Positions 27,326 through 37,343 of a DNA stretch of 64,000 bases are shown piece by piece. Numbering within the stretch: the first letter of the stretch is position 1; each line of letters opens with the position of its first letter. The notes below the pieces were generated by a model, which worked only from the letters and a program-made list of their open reading frames with translations, was not told the DNA's origin and searched no databases. Position numbers and translations under genes: made by a program. The stretch is from Actinomycetes bacterium (GTDB taxonomy: Bacteria; Actinomycetota; Acidimicrobiia; Acidimicrobiales; RAAP-2): assembly GCA_021844425.1 (NCBI GenBank), contig JAKBTL010000076.1:62001-126000 (forward strand). Direction: 5' to 3'.

Positions 27326-27727
27326 CTCCTCTACGCCGACGAGGTGCGGGACCCGGTCCAAGAGATCAGCACGCTGTCGGCGGACGCGCAGTGGTCGCCC
27401 CAGGAGTTGGACACCGCCTTGCTGCTCATCGGCTCGATGACGACCGACGGGGAGCCAGAGCGCTACCACGACACCTACCGGGAACGGCTCGAAGACCTCA
27501 TCGACCAAGAGCGCGCCGGCACGGTCGTGCCTGCGGCGCCCCAGGCGACCGAGCGAGCGCCGGTCATCGACCTCCTCCAGGCGCTCGAGGCGAGCCTTCG
27601 CGCCGCCCGGTGCTCGGTGCCCGCCTCGACGGGCGAGCACGCTGCAGCGGCCGGGACCGCGGCGACAGGGGAGCCGGTGAAGCGATCCGGCGCGACGGGC
27701 CGGCGAAAGGCCTCCTCGCGCCTATGA
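27326..27727 (+). pseudogene. ku: C-terminal fragment of the DNA end-joining protein Ku
   Basis: Translates as GLLYADEVRDPVQEIS, then ELDTALLLIGSMTTDGEPERYHDTYRERLEDLI and a basic tail with VIDLLQALEASLRAA, which is the C-terminal third of bacterial Ku. The N-terminal ~180 residues, including the beta-barrel ring that encircles DNA, are absent and there is no upstream start. No LigD is in the window. The 5' truncation coincides with the truncated end of the neighbouring divergent pseudogene. Confidence 0.8.
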
Positions 27728-28518: not shown

Positions 28519-29262
28519 GTGGCGCAACGACCTGTGGAATTCGAGGCTGCAGACGGGAACTGTCAAGCCTCTCTGAGCGTCCCCGAAGGCGACGGGCCCT
28601 GGCCGGCAGTGCTCATGTACGCGGATGCCGGGGGGATGCGCGACACGATGCGGCACATGGGTGAGCGGCTCTCGACGCTGGGCTACGTGGTCCTCGTGCC
28701 CGACTTCTACTACCGCAACGGACCGTACGACCCGGTCGACATGCGCACCGCGTTCTCCACGAAGGAGAGCGCCGAGAAGCTGATGGCCATGATGCAGGGC
28801 TACACGGTGGACATGGCCCTGCGCGACGCCCAGGCGTTCGCGGACTACCTGGACTCCGTGCCCCAGAAGAAGCCAGGTGGCATCGGCATCACCGGCTACT
28901 GCATGGGGGGGCGCCTCTCGCTCCTCAGCGCAGCGTCCCTGGGCACGCGCGCCGCAGCCGCAGCCTCCTTCCATGGCGGGAACCTCGCCAAGGCCGACGA
29001 CCCCGGCAGCCCCCATTACAAGGCCCGCGCCATCAAGGCAGCGGTCTACGTCGCCGGAGCGATCGAAGACCCCTCGTTCCCCGAAGAGCAGAAAGCGCTG
29101 CTCGAGAAGTCGCTGAGCGAGGCGGGTGTCACCCACACCATCGAGACCTACGAAGCGCGCCACGGCTTCGCGGTCCCAGACAACCCGAGCTACGACGTTG
29201 CCGCGGCCGAACGCCACTGGAGAGCCACGGAGCACTTCTTCGGGTCGGCTCTCGGGGAGTGA
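28519..29262 (+). CDS. Dienelactone hydrolase family protein
   Basis: 247-aa alpha/beta hydrolase from a GTG preceded by GAAGGGAGCG. The nucleophile elbow is GITGYCMGGRLS near residue 130 with Cys as nucleophile, the acid region is AGAIEDPSFP, and the catalytic His is in YEARHGFAVPD. The stop codon lies inside the first copy of a 17-bp tandem repeat. Confidence 0.9.
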   Translation: MAQRPVEFEAADGNCQASLSVPEGDGPWPAVLMYADAGGMRDTMRHMGERLSTLGYVVLVPDFYYRNGPYDPVDMRTAFSTKESAEKLMAMMQGYTVDMALRDAQAFADYLDSVPQKKPGGIGITGYCMGGRLSLLSAASLGTRAAAAASFHGGNLAKADDPGSPHYKARAIKAAVYVAGAIEDPSFPEEQKALLEKSLSEAGVTHTIETYEARHGFAVPDNPSYDVAAAERHWRATEHFFGSALGE

Positions 29263-29318
29263 CCCGCCTCGGGGAGTGACCCGCCTCGGGGAGTGACCCG
29301 CCTCGGGGAGTGACCCGC
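29251..29318 (+). repeat. 17-bp perfect tandem repeat, four copies
   Basis: Unit ctcggggagtgacccgc repeated exactly at 29251-29267, 29268-29284, 29285-29301 and 29302-29318. The first copy contains the last three codons and the TGA stop of the dienelactone hydrolase gene, so the repeat grew from the gene's 3' end. Perfect identity implies recent expansion and variable copy number between strains. Confidence 0.97.
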
Positions 29319-29329
29319 CTCGAGAGGCT

Positions 29330-30236: not shown

Positions 30237-30719
30237 CTACGTCCAGCGGGCGTCGGCCCGGACCACCACGACGGGGCAGTGCGCATGGGTGACCACGCGC
30301 TCGGTCACGTCGCCCAGGAGCCGCTCCGTCGGCTCGCCGTTGCCCTGTCCCTGGCACCCCACGACGAGCAGTGACGCCGAGCTGGACAGCTCGACGAGGG
30401 CCGCGTCAGCCTGGCCTCGAAGCACGTTGGCCGTCACCGTGACGCCGGTGTCGCCGACGACCTCGGCCAGCGTCTCGGCCAGCCTGTTCCTCACGTAGCG
30501 CTCGATCTCGGGACTGACGGGGCCCTCGACGTCTGCCGGCAGCGACCACGCCGACACGGCGAGAAGAGGCGAGCCGACGCGCCGAGCATGTTCGACGGCC
30601 CATGCCAATGCCGCCCGCGCCGCCGGTGAGCCGTCGATGCCGACCACGATCGCACCCGATGTCGAGTCGAAGCGATCCGCCCGTTCGGCGATGCGGGAGA
30701 GCTCGGAACCCAGTGCCAT
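30237..30719 (-). CDS. Universal stress protein, single UspA domain
   Basis: 160 aa from the ATG at 30719. UspA fold with AIVVGIDGSPAARAAL at the start and the ATP-binding G-2x-G-9x-G(S/T)-like region LLVVGCQGQGNGEPTERLLGDV near the C-terminus, ending CPVVVVR. A GGGACC-AA-GGTCCC palindrome 35 bp upstream resembles a DosR/DevR box, suggesting induction by hypoxia or redox stress. The upstream frame is open but non-homologous. Confidence 0.9.
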   Translation of the reverse strand: MALGSELSRIAERADRFDSTSGAIVVGIDGSPAARAALAWAVEHARRVGSPLLAVSAWSLPADVEGPVSPEIERYVRNRLAETLAEVVGDTGVTVTANVLRGQADAALVELSSSASLLVVGCQGQGNGEPTERLLGDVTERVVTHAHCPVVVVRADARWT

Positions 30720-30753
30720 ACTGCATGGTCGCAGCGCGGCACCCCTGAGGAAA

Positions 30754-30769
30754 AGGGACCAAGGTCCCT
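30754..30769. promoter_or_regulatory. DosR-like box between the stress protein and the PGK-like gene
   Basis: AGGGACC-AA-GGTCCCT: seven-base arms in perfect inverted symmetry around two bases. The DosR/DevR consensus core is GGGAC-N4-GTCCC, matched exactly here. It lies in the 189-bp divergent region and could serve both genes. Confidence 0.6.
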
Positions 30770-30908
30770 CCCTCCGCCGTCGAAGCCCGAACCGCGCGAC
30801 GAAGCCTAAGGGCAGCCGCCGGAGGCTCCAGGCCGAAGGGCACTTGTCCACGCGACCTACGGGGCGGAGACTGGGATCGTGCGCGCTGCCGCTGCTCTCA
30901 GGCGCCCG

Positions 30909-32105
30909 ATGGGGCTGCCGACCATCGAGGACCTGCCCGACCCAACCGGCAAGCGCGTGCTCCTCCGAGCGACGCTCGACCTTCCGCTCTCGGCGGACGC
31001 CGACCATCCCCTCGCTCGAGCGCGAGCCGAGGGACTGGCGTCGACGGTACGGTGGCTCGTCGAGCGAGGTGCGCAGGTCACTGTGTGGGGAAGCCCTTGC
31101 TCCCCGCCCCCTACCGATGCCGACGTCGGTGCGGGCATGGATGATCGCTCCGGGGTACCGCGTGCCGCGCGCGGGCGGTTGCCGCACGTCCGGGCGGTGG
31201 TCCGCGAGCTCGAGCCTGTGCTCGCCGGAAGCCCGGCCATTCACGTGCGGACGTGCACCGAAGACTCCAGGGCGGTCGACCGTGTCGCCTCGGAGCACGA
31301 CTTCTTCGTGAACGACAGCCTGCAGGACTCGCTCCTCCCCCTCCCGAGCGTCATGCTTCCTCCCACGCGGCTCCCTTCGGCGATCGGGCGCACGCTGCAG
31401 CGCGACTTGAGCACCCTCGAGCCGCTCACGACCGGGCCGGACCGGCCCTTCGTGGTGGTGCTCGGCGGCGAGCGGACGTACCAGCGCCTCCACGGGCTCG
31501 TCGGGCTCGTCCTGCGCGCCGACGCCGTGCTGCTTGGTGGCGGCCTCGCGCTTGCGATGCTGCAGGCTGTCGGACGCGAGCCGCGCGACGGCGCCGACGA
31601 CGACTTCCTCTGGGAGTGCCGGGAGGTGCTGGGGCTGGCCCAACGGCTTCGTCACCGACTCGTCCTCCCTGACGACCTCGTGTGGGCACACGACGGACCG
31701 GCACGCGTCTCGCGGACCCACACGCATGAAGGCGACCAGGTCGTAGACATCGGGCCTGTCACCTGCGTGCGCTTCGGAGAGGAGCTCCAGGGAGCCGCGG
31801 CGGTGCTCTGGGCCGGCAGCGTCGGGAGGGTCGAACGCGAGCCGTCCCGTGCGGGAACCCGCGCGCTCGCGGCGGCGCTGCGCGAGTCGCAGTCGATCGT
31901 CCTCGGGGGCGACGCTCTCGTCGACCTCCTCTCCCGTGAACGGCTCCAGCCAGCGGCAGCCGCCCTCCTCACCTCCACGGACAGCGCGATCGAGCTGCTG
32001 AAGAGCGGGGGGCTCCCCGCGATCTCTACGATGCGCGACGGCGCGCACCGCCTCGAGATGCGACTGCTCGGTCGGCGCCACGAGCCGAGGGCCGCGCGAA
32101 GCTGA
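30909..32105 (+). CDS. Degenerate phosphoglycerate kinase paralogue
   Basis: 398 aa from the ATG at 30909 (GTG at 30879 is upstream). The order of blocks follows PGK: KRVLLRATLDLPL, TVRWLVERGAQVTVWG, FFVNDSLQDS, RPFVVVLGGERTYQRLHGL, ADAVLLGGGLALAML, VLPDDLVWA, DIGPVTCVRF, VLWAGSVGRVE. Key residues are gone: R-x-DFN-x-P is RATLDLP, HLGRP is WGSPCSPP, NDAFG is NDSLQDS, WNGPxGxFE is WAGSVGRVE, and the nucleotide loops GGGDS and TGGGA are replaced. Catalysis is therefore unlikely; a ligand-binding or regulatory role is possible. It has a full-length, undamaged frame, so it is maintained. Confidence 0.75.
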   Translation: MGLPTIEDLPDPTGKRVLLRATLDLPLSADADHPLARARAEGLASTVRWLVERGAQVTVWGSPCSPPPTDADVGAGMDDRSGVPRAARGRLPHVRAVVRELEPVLAGSPAIHVRTCTEDSRAVDRVASEHDFFVNDSLQDSLLPLPSVMLPPTRLPSAIGRTLQRDLSTLEPLTTGPDRPFVVVLGGERTYQRLHGLVGLVLRADAVLLGGGLALAMLQAVGREPRDGADDDFLWECREVLGLAQRLRHRLVLPDDLVWAHDGPARVSRTHTHEGDQVVDIGPVTCVRFGEELQGAAAVLWAGSVGRVEREPSRAGTRALAAALRESQSIVLGGDALVDLLSRERLQPAAAALLTSTDSAIELLKSGGLPAISTMRDGAHRLEMRLLGRRHEPRAARS

Positions 32106-32150: not shown

Positions 32151-33326
32151 TCACCCCGCCGCCGGGAGCCCGAACACCGGCCCGAGCCGCCCATGGGCAA
32201 CGGCTTCGGGCTGATCGTCGTCCGGTCCGGTCGCGAACGGCGCGCGCTCGACTGCTCTGTTACCCGTGATCGTGCGGTACAGGCGCTCGTAGGAGTCCAC
32301 CATGACCTCGGCCGAGAACCGCCGCTCCGCCCTTGCCCGGCAGGCGTACGGCGAAAGTCGCCCGGCTTCCGTCACCGCTTCTGCCATGCCCTCGATCGTC
32401 GAGCGGAGGAACCCCGTGACGCCGTCCACGACGATCTCGGGCGCCGCGCCGAGTGGCCTCGCGACGACGGGGGTCCCGCATGCCATGGACTCGGTCATCA
32501 CCATGCCGAACGGTTCCGGCCAGTCGATCGGAAAGACCATGGCCTGAGCTCTTCCGATCACGTCCACCTTCACGTCGTGGGGCGGCTGGTCGAGCACCTC
32601 CACGTCGGCGCCGAGGCGCGGGGCGACGACGTCGTCCCAGTAGGCCAGCTCCGCAGGCTCGCTCCGTTTCACGATCATCGCCAGCGGTAGCCCCGCGAGC
32701 CGGGCGATGTCGATGGCGAGCTCCGGCCGTTTCTCCGGGCTGACCCGTCCGACGTAGACGAGAAACCGCTCCTTCCTCGCTCGGAAAGGGTGGGCGGCGA
32801 GGTCGACCCCGTTGTAGATCATGCCTGAGTAGTGCACGGCAAGGTTGGCCCGGCGCTGGGCGTCGCTGATCGCGACGAGGTGCACGCGTCCGTCGAGCAG
32901 CCTGAAGAGACGCTTCGAGGGCGCCGTCCACGGACCGTGCAGCGTGTGGACGACCGGGACGCGCGGGTAGAGCATCGCGCCGAGCACCGGGCCGTAGCTC
33001 GTGTGGTCGTGGACGAGGTCGAACTGCTCGGCCGCGACGAAGGCTGCTGCCGTGTGGTACTGGTCGTCCGCCAACGATGCCGGGTCGCCGAGAAGCGGCG
33101 CGGCGTCGAGCGGCACGACGAGGCGTGCTCGGGTCCTCGAACCTGGTCCCGCGAACACCGTCACCTCGTGTCCACGCGCCACGAGCCCCTCCGCGAGCAT
33201 GGCGACCACCCGCTCGATTCCGCCGTACGCGGGGGGAGGCACCGGCAGGAACGGGGGCGCGACCAGCGCGATGCGCAGCGAAACGCCGCCGGGCAGGCGC
33301 CAGCCTTGGAACTGTCCTTGTTCCAC
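32151..33326 (-). CDS. Glycosyltransferase family 4 protein
   Basis: 391 aa, GT-B fold. The N-terminal domain starts RIALVAPPFLPVPPPAYGGIERVV, and the C-terminal donor domain has FLVYVGRVSPEKRPELAI, then PIDWPEPFGMVMTESMACGTPVVA with the E-x7-E motif. It transfers a sugar from a nucleotide donor to an unknown acceptor in the cytoplasm. It is the last gene of the minus-strand run that begins at the adenosine-specific kinase, 62 bp after the two-domain stress protein. Confidence 0.9.
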   Translation of the reverse strand: MEQGQFQGWRLPGGVSLRIALVAPPFLPVPPPAYGGIERVVAMLAEGLVARGHEVTVFAGPGSRTRARLVVPLDAAPLLGDPASLADDQYHTAAAFVAAEQFDLVHDHTSYGPVLGAMLYPRVPVVHTLHGPWTAPSKRLFRLLDGRVHLVAISDAQRRANLAVHYSGMIYNGVDLAAHPFRARKERFLVYVGRVSPEKRPELAIDIARLAGLPLAMIVKRSEPAELAYWDDVVAPRLGADVEVLDQPPHDVKVDVIGRAQAMVFPIDWPEPFGMVMTESMACGTPVVARPLGAAPEIVVDGVTGFLRSTIEGMAEAVTEAGRLSPYACRARAERRFSAEVMVDSYERLYRTITGNRAVERAPFATGPDDDQPEAVAHGRLGPVFGLPAAG

Positions 33327-33388: not shown

Positions 33389-34279
33389 TCACGGTGCACC
33401 ATGCGACGCGGCGTCCGGTAGGGCCGTACGTCCCGCGTCGCCAGCCACCGGCAAGAGCAGGACGGGGATCGCCGAGGTGCTCAGCACGTCGCGCACGACG
33501 CGCGCTCGCCCACCAGAGCTGACTTGGGACCAGCTGAGCACGATCATGCCACACGGACCCTTGTCGCAGGCCTCGCGCACGCGGTCCGCGATGGGACCCG
33601 CGCGCAGCAGGATCCGGCTCGCACCCGGACAGTGCTTGGCGAGGAGCTCGCGACCGATCAGCTCGAAGTCCCGAACCGGGTCGTCGAGCATCCGAGGCAA
33701 CGTCTCCTGGGTGAACACGTGCAGCACCTCCACCTCGGCACCGGTCACGAGCAACGGGAACAGCGCCTCGAGGATCGGGCGTGACGAGGACGCCGTGCCC
33801 TCGAGGGGCACGAGCAGGTGGCTCAGCGGCCCTTCCGACCCCTTCGGCGCGACTGGCACGATCACGACGAACTTGCTCGACCGCTCGGCGACGTACCGGG
33901 TCGTGGGGCCGACAGGGTGGCGTCCGCTGCGCTCGAGACCAGCACCGACCACGATCGCGCGCACCTCCGGCCGCACGATCTCGGCGACGAGCGCACGGTT
34001 CGCCGGGCCGTCGATCCGACGAAGCGCCACGCCGGCGCGCCGGGCGAGCATGCAGAGTGTGGCGGGGAGCGATGTGCCGGCGTGCAGGGCTTCCACTCCG
34101 GCACCGATGATCTCAGCGAACTTGACCCCGGTGCCGAGGACCGAGGACGAGGAATCGTCCTTATCGAGCGCCGCGAGGACCACCGGCACCCGTGGGGGCT
34201 CGAGGGCCTGCGGGGGCTCGGGTGACCGGGGCTGCTCGGGGGCCTGCGGGGTCCGTGAGGTCGGTGGGATCTCGGTCAT
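33389..34279 (-). CDS. Two-domain universal stress protein
   Basis: 296 aa from the ATG at 34279, which overlaps the GH65 stop. A Pro-rich N-terminal stretch (~30 residues) precedes two UspA-like halves: VPVVLAALDKDDSS ... AIVVGAGLERSGRHPVGPTTRYV and LSHLLVPLEGTASSSRPIL ... GMIVLSWSQVSSGGRARVVRDVL. The second half ends with STSAIPVLLLP. Coupling to the sugar phosphorylase suggests a joint carbohydrate and stress role. Confidence 0.82.
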   Translation of the reverse strand: MTEIPPTSRTPQAPEQPRSPEPPQALEPPRVPVVLAALDKDDSSSSVLGTGVKFAEIIGAGVEALHAGTSLPATLCMLARRAGVALRRIDGPANRALVAEIVRPEVRAIVVGAGLERSGRHPVGPTTRYVAERSSKFVVIVPVAPKGSEGPLSHLLVPLEGTASSSRPILEALFPLLVTGAEVEVLHVFTQETLPRMLDDPVRDFELIGRELLAKHCPGASRILLRAGPIADRVREACDKGPCGMIVLSWSQVSSGGRARVVRDVLSTSAIPVLLLPVAGDAGRTALPDAASHGAP

Positions 34280-36798
34280 GGCGGGCTCCTCTTGGCGGCC
34301 TTCACGGCCGCGCGCGACGGCGACCCGACGGGGACGACCAGCGGCGCTCCTCCGCGATGTTCGATTTCGGTTCCCGCCACGGCGAGCTGGAGGGGGGCAC
34401 TGGACGCGATGATGACGTCGTCGCGCGACGCGCGCACCTCTACGGGGACCCCCTGGACACGGAAGCGCATCGAGAGCTCGCGCCATGCCGACGGGAGGTG
34501 CGGATCGACGACGACCCTGTGCGAGTCGGTGCGAACACCGAGGAACCCGTAGGCGAGCGCCTGCCATACGCCGCCCATCGCGGCAAGGTGCAGGCCCCCG
34601 GCGGTCGTCCCGGTCACGTCGTCGAGATCGAGCCTGGCGGCGGTTCGGAAGAGGTGCAGCGCCTCGTCCGGCCGGCCCGCCCGGGCAAGGAGCGTTGCCG
34701 AGATGGCTGGAGAGAGCGAGCTGCCGTGCGCGGTCCGGGGTTCGTAGAAGTCGATGCAGCGCTCGAGCGAACCCCGGGGGGGAATTGTCGGCAGCACGTG
34801 ATGGATCATGAGCACGTCTGCTTGCTTGATGAGCTGGGACGCCCGAACGCGCTCTGGGCCGAGCAGGACGTCGATGGCGACCGGCGGGCGGGCGACGTCC
34901 GACACGACGAGCGGCTCCAGCCCGAAGTACCCCGCGAACTGCTCGTAGATGCCCTGCTCGGCAACGAAGCCGTCCACGAGGCGCGCAGCGAGATCACGCC
35001 ACGCTGCGGTCTCCCCCGCACGCGACCCCGCGCGCGACCCCGCACGCGACCCCGCGCGCGACCCCGCAGGGTCGGCGCTCCCGCCACCCGGCCCCTGTAC
35101 CTGGTCCAAGAGGTCCGCAGCGCATCGGAGGTTCCAGCGCGCCATCACATTGGTGAATGCGTTGTCGTCGACCACCTCGTGGTACTCGTCCGGGCCCATC
35201 ACTCCGTAGAGGTGGGCCCGGCCGGCTCGGTCCAGCCGTATGCGGCTCGCCCAGTAGCGAGCGGTCTCGACGACAAGGCCGCGGCCCGGCCCCTCGAGGA
35301 AGGCCCCGTCCCCACTCCACTCGGCGTACCGGACCGCCGCCCAGGCCACGTCGGCCACGATGTGCTCCTCATGGGCTCCGGTGAGGATCGGGATCGGCTC
35401 GCCGTGCGGACCGTGGACGAGGCGGGGGGTGACGTCGCTCCCGTCCCGCGCCGACTCCCACGGAAACCGCGCACCTGTGCGCCCGAGCGCTGCGGCCTGC
35501 GCGCGGGCGGCAGGCAGCCGGCGGATGCGGTACTCGAGCATCGCACGTGCCGCCTCCGGACGCAGCGCGACGAGTGCAGGCAGCACGAACACGTCGGCGT
35601 CCCAGAACACATGGCCGTCGTAGGCGTCGCCGGTCAGGCCACGCGCCCCGACCGCCGCTTCGCCGCCGGCGGAAGCCGCCGCGAGCAGGTGGAACACCGA
35701 GAAGCGAGCTGCGAGCTCGTCCCTGGCCGCCTCGGGACCTCCGACGATCGTCACCTCGGCTCCTCGCCATCGCTGAGCCCATGCCCTGCGCTGCCCGGCC
35801 AACAGGGCATCGAACCCGACGGAGGCAGCGCGTGCGAGCTGCCTCGCCGCACGTCGCTCGGCCGGCGCTCCGTCACGGCCCGTCGACCATGCGCAGAGGC
35901 GCTCGAGGGTGACTCGGTCAGCATCCCCTGCCCACTGCTCGCGTGCAGCGACCGCGAGCGTTCCGAGTGCCGAGCCGCTCGACGCGACCGTGGCGCCTCC
36001 CTGACGCCGGGTGCGCCCACCTCCTCCGTCGGGAACTTCGAGCACGTCCCCGGGCAAGAGCGCGCCGTCGAACGCCTCGGCGCGCAGCGCCATGGCGTGC
36101 AGCTGCTCGCTCGAGACGAAGCGAAGCGAGCGCACACCGGTCTTGGCGTCGACGCGGACGAGGACGCCCGTCCGCAGGTCGACGGCGCCGACCACAGGCT
36201 GCGGCGAGTCGTCCGCCACGTTGGCGACCGTCCAGATCGGTCCGCGGACGAGGCGGCTCCGGTCGTCGTAGAGGCCTGCCGCGGCGAACAGCGGAGACGC
36301 ACGCTGACCCGTGCGCTCGGCCGAGCCGCGTACCCCGACCCTGCCGTTCGCAAGAGTGCCGAGAGCCTCGGTGACCCGCACCTTCGAGGGATCCCGGGGA
36401 AGGGGCACCACCCAACGGGGGTCGTCGTCGACGCCGGGCACACGGCGCGCCGCCCGGCGCTCCAGTTGCGCGTCGAGGATCTCGATGAGCCGGAGCTGAC
36501 CTCCGCCCATCAGCTGCACGCCGGAAGCGACTCCCCCGGTCTGGTCGCCGACCGAGACCGCGACCGCACGGACGAGCTCGTCCACCAGCATCGTCGCGTC
36601 GCTGCCGGGCACGCCGCCGAGAGAGCCGAGCTCGTCGCCGGCGACGAGGACGAGCGAGCCGGTCACCCCCTGATCACCGAGCACGCGCGCCGCGAACCGT
36701 GCCGAGTCGGACCTGGCGGTGAGCGAGAGCTCGACGTACCTCACGTCAGTCGTGACTCGGACGTCGTCGAGCGCGGCCCGGCGCGCCGCACGCCGCAC
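34276..36798 (-). CDS. GH65 glycoside phosphorylase, carrying the C-terminal part of a HAD domain
   Basis: 840-aa frame starting at a GTG inside a 7-bp repeat. Residues 1 to ~115 are not GH65: VTTDVRYVELSLTARSDSAR and VAGDELGSLGGVPGSDATML are the end of a HAD phosphatase, with its motif IV. GH65 follows, with the catalytic-acid block GVMGPDEYHEVVDDNAFTNV near residue 535 and phosphate-binding AHGSSLSP. The enzyme should phosphorolyse a disaccharide such as trehalose or kojibiose. Taken with the HAD frame at 36741 this is one ~1,020-aa HAD-GH65 gene broken by a frameshift. A (GSRA)4 repeat lies near residue 580. Confidence 0.85.
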   Translation of the reverse strand: MRRAARRAALDDVRVTTDVRYVELSLTARSDSARFAARVLGDQGVTGSLVLVAGDELGSLGGVPGSDATMLVDELVRAVAVSVGDQTGGVASGVQLMGGGQLRLIEILDAQLERRAARRVPGVDDDPRWVVPLPRDPSKVRVTEALGTLANGRVGVRGSAERTGQRASPLFAAAGLYDDRSRLVRGPIWTVANVADDSPQPVVGAVDLRTGVLVRVDAKTGVRSLRFVSSEQLHAMALRAEAFDGALLPGDVLEVPDGGGGRTRRQGGATVASSGSALGTLAVAAREQWAGDADRVTLERLCAWSTGRDGAPAERRAARQLARAASVGFDALLAGQRRAWAQRWRGAEVTIVGGPEAARDELAARFSVFHLLAAASAGGEAAVGARGLTGDAYDGHVFWDADVFVLPALVALRPEAARAMLEYRIRRLPAARAQAAALGRTGARFPWESARDGSDVTPRLVHGPHGEPIPILTGAHEEHIVADVAWAAVRYAEWSGDGAFLEGPGRGLVVETARYWASRIRLDRAGRAHLYGVMGPDEYHEVVDDNAFTNVMARWNLRCAADLLDQVQGPGGGSADPAGSRAGSRAGSRAGSRAGETAAWRDLAARLVDGFVAEQGIYEQFAGYFGLEPLVVSDVARPPVAIDVLLGPERVRASQLIKQADVLMIHHVLPTIPPRGSLERCIDFYEPRTAHGSSLSPAISATLLARAGRPDEALHLFRTAARLDLDDVTGTTAGGLHLAAMGGVWQALAYGFLGVRTDSHRVVVDPHLPSAWRELSMRFRVQGVPVEVRASRDDVIIASSAPLQLAVAGTEIEHRGGAPLVVPVGSPSRAAVKAAKRSPP
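35019..35066. repeat. 12-bp in-frame tandem repeat in the GH65 gene
   Basis: Four 12-bp units alternating cacgcgaccccg and cgcgcgaccccg (two 24-bp units), encoding GSRA four times. Copy number change would keep the frame. Confidence 0.95.
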
Positions 36799-37343
36799 GC
36801 CGCACGCCGCACGAGGTCTACGACCCCGGCCAGCCCCGCGATGTCGGCCTTGGCCAGGCGCGTGTCGAGCGCGGACAGCATCTCGGTCCTCCAGGCCTTC
36901 TTCGGGTCCGGCCGATCGGCCTCTGGGATCAGGTCGATCGTGTAGCGGCTCGGTCCGTCAGCAGCCATGTGCACCGTAAGGCCCTTCGCCTCGAACGCAG
37001 CGAGGCTGAGGGCCGCTGCGCGCTCGAGCCCAGCAGCCTCTTGCGGCGTCCAGGACTGACGGAAGACGAGATCGATTCCCCGCGTGTTCGCCCGAAACGC
37101 CTCTGCCCCATGGTTCGCGCACAGGTAGAGACGACCCGGGCCCGACGGCCGAGCCGCGAGCTGCCCGTCGACGTCGTCCACAGACCTCGCGCTCACCACG
37201 AACACGTAGACGCCATAGCGGCAGAGAGCCTCGATCCGCTCGCGCAGGACGCCGGCATCGCTGGCGCGGCCGTCGACCGCGGTACCCTCCCAGTCGAAGA
37301 GGATCCCTTCGAAGGTCGTGTCGAGGGTCTCGGGGATCGTCAC
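36741..37343 (-). CDS. HAD sugar-phosphatase domain, N-terminal part of the split HAD-GH65 gene
   Basis: About 200 codons from a GTG at 37343, preceded by GAGGCGGAGGA. HAD motif I is GILFDWEGTAVDG, where the second acidic residue is Glu instead of Asp; motif II is FVVSARSVDDVDGQ. A trehalose-phosphatase-like arrangement follows (LCANHGAEAF, IDLIPEADRPDPKKAW). After the 7-bp repeat the frame runs into 15 unrelated residues and stops, before motif IV, which lies in the next frame. On its own this part cannot be an active phosphatase. Confidence 0.82.
   Translation of the reverse strand: MTIPETLDTTFEGILFDWEGTAVDGRASDAGVLRERIEALCRYGVYVFVVSARSVDDVDGQLAARPSGPGRLYLCANHGAEAFRANTRGIDLVFRQSWTPQEAAGLERAAALSLAAFEAKGLTVHMAADGPSRYTIDLIPEADRPDPKKAWRTEMLSALDTRLAKADIAGLAGVVDLVRRAACGVRRAGPRSTTSESRLT
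36783..36810. repeat. 7-bp tandem repeat (gccgcac x4) at the HAD-GH65 frameshift
   Basis: Four exact copies on the plus strand; on the coding strand the unit is gtgcggc. The HAD frame enters the repeat in one phase and the GH65 frame leaves it in another. Because 7 is not divisible by 3, two or five copies would join both frames, while four, as here, separate them. Confidence 0.95.

Follow-up and report, generated by a model that had tools for sequence, protein, structure and literature searches.

A gene on the forward strand of the actinobacterial DNA analysed here (a stretch of 64,000 nucleotides, referred to as the window) quite probably encodes a catalytically dead paralogue of phosphoglycerate kinase (PGK), kept by selection in one family of uncultured actinobacteria (probably Acidimicrobiia, order Acidimicrobiales) and placed within a DosR-like response to hypoxia or dormancy. 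A central metabolic enzyme seems here to have been diverted to a different role, and the protein, called PGKL below, probably works by binding a ligand or another protein. A first-pass annotation of the window had described the gene as a maintained PGK paralogue without catalytic motifs. This description is borne out by losses common to nine orthologues and by dN/dS values of 0.15–0.25. To our knowledge, PGK is among the most conserved metabolic enzymes, and nearly all known copies are catalysts.

Descent, fold and maintenance of the paralogue

The gene is defined as follows, on the evidence of a PF00162 match, nine orthologues, dN/dS, a structure model and an upstream alignment of four genomes:

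30909..32105, + strand, PGK-like paralogue (PGKL)

The frame is open and encodes 398 amino acids, in which PF00162 is the only Pfam domain found. The match covers the full length with 132.6 bits (E 2.3e-38) and clears the curated cut-off of 27 bits. Residues 5–376 were aligned to solved PGKs with phmmer, and the block order of PGK, which the annotation had read over the full length, holds. The sole NCBIfam match is a PGK/TIM fusion model, with a score far under its cut-off. Structure prediction, which the annotation had proposed, gave a confident PGK fold. The AlphaFold model, built from an alignment of the nine PGKLs and 69 ordinary PGKs, has a pLDDT of 89.7 and a pTM of 0.88; it is closest to Thermotoga maritima PGK (1vpe; Z 38.3, 359 residues, rmsd 3.2), and its comparison with closed human PGK (2wzb) gives Z 36.4. 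The model thus predicts the two-domain PGK fold. Because its alignment consists mostly of ordinary PGKs, the pocket geometry may lean towards PGK and the fine detail is not trustworthy; the model obtained from eight PGKLs alone was poor (pLDDT 56.5). By descent and fold, PGKL is a member of the PGK family.

An antisense open reading frame of 614 amino acids (30237–32081, − strand) overlaps the gene. It was rejected as a real gene, given the PGK homology and the lowest dN/dS in the sense frame, and the universal stress protein contained in it is there only by a chance joining of two frames.

When 61 relatives were searched with the protein and 172 family members with a profile, PGKL was identified in nine genomes (G000, which is the host genome, G001, G007, G008, G019, G022, G035, G024 and G063), which belong to five genera in one family of the order. 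The host assembly comprises 3.0 Mb in 138 contigs and is 92% complete; its PGKL is 78% identical to that of G001. After the PGKLs, profile scores fall from 476 to 280 bits, and the next matches are ordinary PGKs. No PGKL was found outside the family in overlapping, non-exhaustive samples that covered 395 genomes of the class, 397 of the order and 396 of the phylum. Order-level matches of 285–298 bits were rejected as further members, since the nine that were checked all have intact motifs. Each of the nine PGKL genomes also encodes an ordinary PGK whose motifs are complete; in the host, this gene lies on a separate contig (C11).

The nine PGKLs are monophyletic (SH-aLRT 100), and the stem that leads to them is long, at 0.89 + 1.35 or about 2.2 changes per site; within the clade, G035, G024 and G063 are split from the other six. 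The tree is rooted by midpoint only and therefore does not fix where PGKL arose with respect to the ordinary PGKs of actinobacteria. Some family members carry a second motif-intact PGK clade (L119, L121, L124 and L125, in G092, G062, G023 and G116), grouped against PGKL with an SH-aLRT of 100. These second copies were rejected as intermediates: their catalytic lysines and 3-phosphoglycerate (3PG) motifs are intact, and the tree places them among the ordinary PGKs.

The selection estimates agree with maintenance of the gene. By YN00, dN/dS is 0.25 for the G000/G001 pair and 0.15 for G007/G008, which argues that the gene is not decaying; bootstrap ranges by NG86 for four pairs are 0.31–0.55, 0.14–0.35, 0.23–0.50 and 0.18–0.36. 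The sense frame gives 0.39 by NG86 and 0.25 by YN00. The other five frames of the same DNA give 0.52–1.40 by NG86, with four above 1.2 and the fifth, on the minus strand, at 0.52 and containing stops. Since the frame is conserved in nine genomes at a dN/dS of 0.15–0.25, chance is excluded, and the earlier claim of an undamaged frame under selection stands. The annotation had also named two outcomes that would count against it, orthologues with intact PGK motifs and dN/dS near one; neither was found, as the motifs are gone in all orthologues. Ordinary PGK in the same pairs has values of 0.04 and 0.13 (YN00), and the constraint on PGKL is therefore weaker than that on PGK in one pair and about the same in the other. 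The C-domain identities among close relatives, PGKL versus ordinary PGK, are 0.70 versus 0.70 and 0.97 versus 0.90.

Residues lost, kept and newly fixed

The nine orthologues were compared with 69 ordinary PGKs in a MAFFT alignment. Motif residues are numbered as in human PGK1, with positions matched through the conserved motifs of PGK structures. The catalytic lysine K215 (GGAK), present in all 69 ordinary PGKs, is replaced by R, D, N or S in every PGKL, and the K219 position is arginine in all nine. The basic 3PG patch (H62, R65, R122 and R170, with D23, N25 and R38) is dismantled. H169, R170 and H172 are gone from all nine proteins and R65 from eight; D23 and H62 are absent in six and retained in G035, G024 and G063; the R122 column is gappy and unreliable. 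The annotation was right that HLGRP is changed, and partly right about the substrate Arg/Asp/Asn motif: N25 has become aspartate in 9/9 and D23 is lost as just described, but the residue aligned to R38 is still arginine in six proteins, that of the window included. Its statement on the NDAFG motif also needs qualification, as the ND part is still present.

Both nucleotide loops are changed, as had been claimed. N336 and P338 are gone from 9/9 PGKLs, GGG395–397 has become A/S-T-D/G, with G395 and G396 lost throughout, and GGGDS reads GGDAL or GGDSL. With the GGGDT loop counted in, all the nucleotide-phosphate loops are thus altered in every member. The alignment of the GGGD/GGGDT loop is ambiguous by one residue, as phmmer and MAFFT disagree there, and for this reason the Mg-ligand aspartate may persist as D335. 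E343 (E309 in PGKL) is retained in eight of the nine and glycines 237, 337 and 340 in all. The adenine-pocket positions 312–313 and 341 are also changed, so nucleotide binding may be gone. Altogether, 35 of 106 strongly conserved PGK columns are unchanged across the nine PGKLs. Judged by its residues, PGKL is not a functional phosphoglycerate kinase.

The losses are accompanied by gains. Eleven positions are invariant among the PGKLs and unlike ordinary PGK, including D24, Q139, D166, R193, D335, L337, T357 and K365. In PGK, three separate loops hold the nucleotide phosphates, and several of the PGKL-specific fixed residues fall in these loops. Such coordinated fixation, as read from the alignment, is easier to reconcile with a new function than with decay. 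The former 3PG loop has become hydrophobic and conserved (LxDSLLPLPS, residues 138–147). Loop 61–118, the HLGRP site in PGK, is low in both model confidence and conservation and is glycine-rich in G007 and G008.

Gene neighbourhood and predicted DosR-type control

The following features surround PGKL in the window:

30237..30719, − strand, universal stress protein (USP), divergent from PGKL (PF00582)
32151..33326, − strand, GT4-type glycosyltransferase, converging with PGKL (PF13439, PF00534)
33389..34189, − strand, second USP (PF00582)
34276..36798, − strand, GH65 family sugar hydrolase/phosphorylase (PF03632)
36741..37343, − strand, HAD/trehalose-phosphatase-like part, split from GH65 (fused to it in G001 in a protein of 1006 amino acids, L045)
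30755..30768, unstranded, palindrome GGGACCAAGGTCCC, a DosR-like box between the divergent USP and PGKL, with one mismatch to GGGACYTTNGGCCC
30832..30845, + strand, promoter block GCCGAAGGGCACTT, a degenerate DosR-like box about 40 bp before GTG 30879, conserved in G000, G001, G007 and G008
30867..30872, + strand, putative −10-like hexamer GAGACT, six bases before GTG 30879

Beyond the HAD part, the window holds CBS, adenosine-specific kinase, phosphoribosyltransferase-hydrolase and DsrE genes. The annotation had placed PGKL next to sugar phosphorylase genes: GH65 is indeed present, but on the other strand and beyond the glycosyltransferase and the second USP. It had also spoken of many broken genes in the region. 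A Ku remnant and the HAD–GH65 split agree with this, but most neighbours of PGKL are intact. The Ku remnant (27326–27715, + strand) is the C-terminal half only (residues 168–308); the Ku gene of G001 is intact and adjoins ligase D-like genes (L045 2763–6200). The HAD–GH65 fusion has been split by a frameshift in the window, since G001 has a single protein without the repeat found here. That repeat, a perfect 7-bp unit (CGCCGCA, 4.3 copies, 36784–36813, − strand), lies at the junction of the two frames, and the frameshift could reflect slippage or phase variation. Just after the dienelactone hydrolase gene, the 17-bp unit CTCGGGGAGTGACCCGC stands in tandem (29251–29322; 4.2 copies, 100% identical). 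A plasmid search gave no match.

The PGKL neighbourhood of G001 has the same order as the window, and the PGKLs of G007 and G008 share a location that differs from it. In G019, the gene is surrounded by HAD, acyl-CoA ligase and pyruvate dehydrogenase-like genes, and the adenosine-specific kinase is close by; in G022, it lies near an ADP-forming acyl-CoA ligase. In G035, it adjoins an arginine-deiminase-type set (L050 6805–11469), with an amino acid kinase family gene identified by Pfam and carbamoyltransferase and deiminase-like genes assigned by eye, and in G024 a USP lies within 6 kb. The neighbours in G035 and G022 would be in keeping with energy metabolism at low oxygen. Only close relatives share the gene context, and there is no single conserved partner gene among the orthologues; the common theme of the neighbourhoods is energy metabolism under low oxygen or stress.

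PGKL may start at GTG 30879 (408 amino acids) instead of ATG 30909. The stretch before this GTG (a block beginning GCCGAA, then GAGACT, six bases and GTG) is conserved in G001, and G007 and G008 have the same layout, with ATG at the position aligned to GTG 30879. The ACT of the hexamer is conserved in the four genomes. From this layout, the transcript is probably leaderless. A DosR-like box probably precedes PGKL, and the palindrome agrees with the earlier reading of a USP lying opposite the gene behind such a box. Compared with GGGACYTTNGGCCC, the block at 30832..30845 has one mismatch in G001 and three in G007 and G008. The empirical fractions for the upstream box scores are 0.013 in G000, 0.043 in G001, 0.38 in G007, 0.17 in G008, 0.14 in G019, 0.05 in G022, 1.0 in G035, 0.09 in G024 and 0.027 in G063; no DosR-like box was found upstream of the G035 gene. 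Taken over the nine PGKLs, these scores are no more than suggestive of DosR-type control.

In the window, GGGACYTTNGGCCC with up to two mismatches has 11 sites against 5.1 expected, a number reached in 2 of 100 shuffles; seven of the sites lie at most 160 bp upstream of called genes, mostly of the stress type. Across the whole genome, the motif with one mismatch allowed has 19 sites against nine in the control, which is a modest excess. About 12 of the 19 are intergenic according to our own gene calls, and nine lie before genes. The genes behind these boxes include a USP, Hsp20, radical SAM/nitroreductase, ADH, a sigma factor and a HAD/AAA_33 pair. A search that tolerated one mismatch gave no site in the genome for the exact block GCCGAAAGGCCCTT; the exact block as such is therefore not a genome-wide box, and the degenerate GGGACYTTNGGCCC is. 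The palindrome GGGACYWWRGTCCC occurs at nine sites genome-wide against eight in the control and shows no excess. On contig C89 of the host (L157 4261–7297), a DevR/DosR-like response regulator, a DevS/DosT-like GAF histidine kinase and a USP stand in a row. The best solved relative of the regulator is Mycobacterium tuberculosis DevR/DosR (3c3w, E 1.4e-72), and the kinase is closest to DevS/DosT (2vzw, E 2e-37). The DosR-like setting suspected in the annotation is therefore recognizable in the host, and DosR-type regulation of PGKL is predicted from the boxes together with these homologues. The host genome has 15 USP matches, which is many for 3 Mb.

Possible roles and relation to known systems

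In the mechanism that we propose, PGKL would keep the two-lobed, hinge-closing body of PGK, while the rebuilt cleft (D24, Q139, R193, D335, T357, K365) and the hydrophobic loop at 138–146 would bind a ligand, a partner protein or both. The ligand is perhaps an adenylate, since E343 and glycines 237, 238 and 340 are largely kept. The protein could then report the energy state or tune glycolysis when oxygen runs out, without phosphate transfer. Metabolite sensing, which the annotation had suggested, is a putative role. A bolder claim, which we make tentatively and which may well prove wrong, is that no earlier bacterial family is known to have turned the PGK scaffold into a sensor or a new enzyme, here acting in a hypoxia response of the DosR type with a ligand site rebuilt from these same residues.

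PGKL could also be a new enzyme with another substrate or reaction (e.g., another acyl phosphate or a nucleotide), in which R193, D335, T357, K365 and D24 form a new active site. The invariant residues lie exactly at former active-site positions, where a mere scaffold would not need them, the two domains are kept and the K219 position is strictly arginine. Nevertheless, PGKL has lost the phosphoryl-transfer lysine and most of the contacts to the nucleotide phosphates, its 3PG loop is now hydrophobic, and loop 61–118 shows little conservation and is rich in glycine in two members, which leaves this reading rather doubtful. A subunit that forms complexes with ordinary PGK, GAPDH or some other protein, and controls this partner without a small ligand, is conceivable at the level of perhaps one chance in a few. 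The conserved hydrophobic loop resembles an interface, but no conserved gene partner lies nearby, and PGKL would have inherited no oligomer, because ordinary PGK is usually monomeric (PMC7729029). The likelihoods given to a binding pseudoenzyme and to an interaction subunit overlap, since the second is a sub-case of the first, which is the best explanation.

The remaining readings find much less room. A weak or conditional phosphoglycerate kinase could draw on the kept fold, the R38-aligned arginine in 6/9, E309 (E343) in 8/9 and possibly a Mg-ligand aspartate, but it is highly improbable: K215, R170, H172, N336, P338 and the GGG loop are lost in 9/9 and R65 in 8/9, and an ordinary PGK is present in every PGKL genome. 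Still harder to credit is a decaying duplicate, a pseudogene in progress. PGKL evolves about two to three times faster than ordinary PGK of the same genomes (branch sums), and Ku and the HAD–GH65 fusion nearby are broken; however, the clade is old and covers five genera, none of the nine frames is broken, dN/dS is well below one in every comparison among the PGKLs, and new residues have been fixed. Decay is refuted by the selection tests, unless these were misled by base composition.

If the preferred reading of a dead but selected PGK paralogue is true, bacterial PGKL would be a clean case of a glycolytic enzyme becoming a regulator: catalysis would have been lost in an ancestor and new residues fixed, with the paralogue retained alongside the normal PGK among genes of a hypoxia type. 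Automatic annotation would name genes of this type phosphoglycerate kinase, which calls for caution. The graded loss, with D23 and H62 kept in G035, G024 and G063 and lost in six, provides an ordered series for studying the transition.

Compared with PGK itself (PF00162; T. maritima 1vpe, human 2wzb), PGKL has the same two-domain fold over its whole length but lacks the catalytic lysine, the basic 3PG patch and the nucleotide-phosphate loops; its identity is about 17–30% to solved PGKs and 28–35% to the ordinary PGKs of relatives. Mycobacterial DosR regulons include heat shock proteins, USPs, a nitroreductase and the Rv2004c orthologue (PMC10034137). The host likewise has a DevR/DosR–DevS/DosS-like pair, USPs, Hsp20, a nitroreductase and DosR-like boxes, but the regulon descriptions examined contain no PGK-like protein, and regulation by the boxes in the host is a prediction. 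In the literature searched, which lay mostly outside subscription journals, no bacterial dead PGK was found, and the published cases are kinetoplastid only. A conserved bacterial family of dead PGKs therefore appears to be new.

The kinetoplastid proteins, from Trypanosoma brucei and Bodo saltans, are paralogues without key catalytic and 3PG-binding residues that occur beside active PGKs, and several are large, being fused to cAMP-binding and membrane domains, or flagellar (PMC7729029, PMC4106842). Bacterial PGKL resembles them in having lost the catalytic residues and in being kept beside an active PGK. The two groups presumably arose independently, to judge from hosts and architecture rather than from a joint tree: the bacterial protein has bare PGK size (398 amino acids), without a cAMP-binding or transmembrane fusion, and stands in a DosR-like setting.
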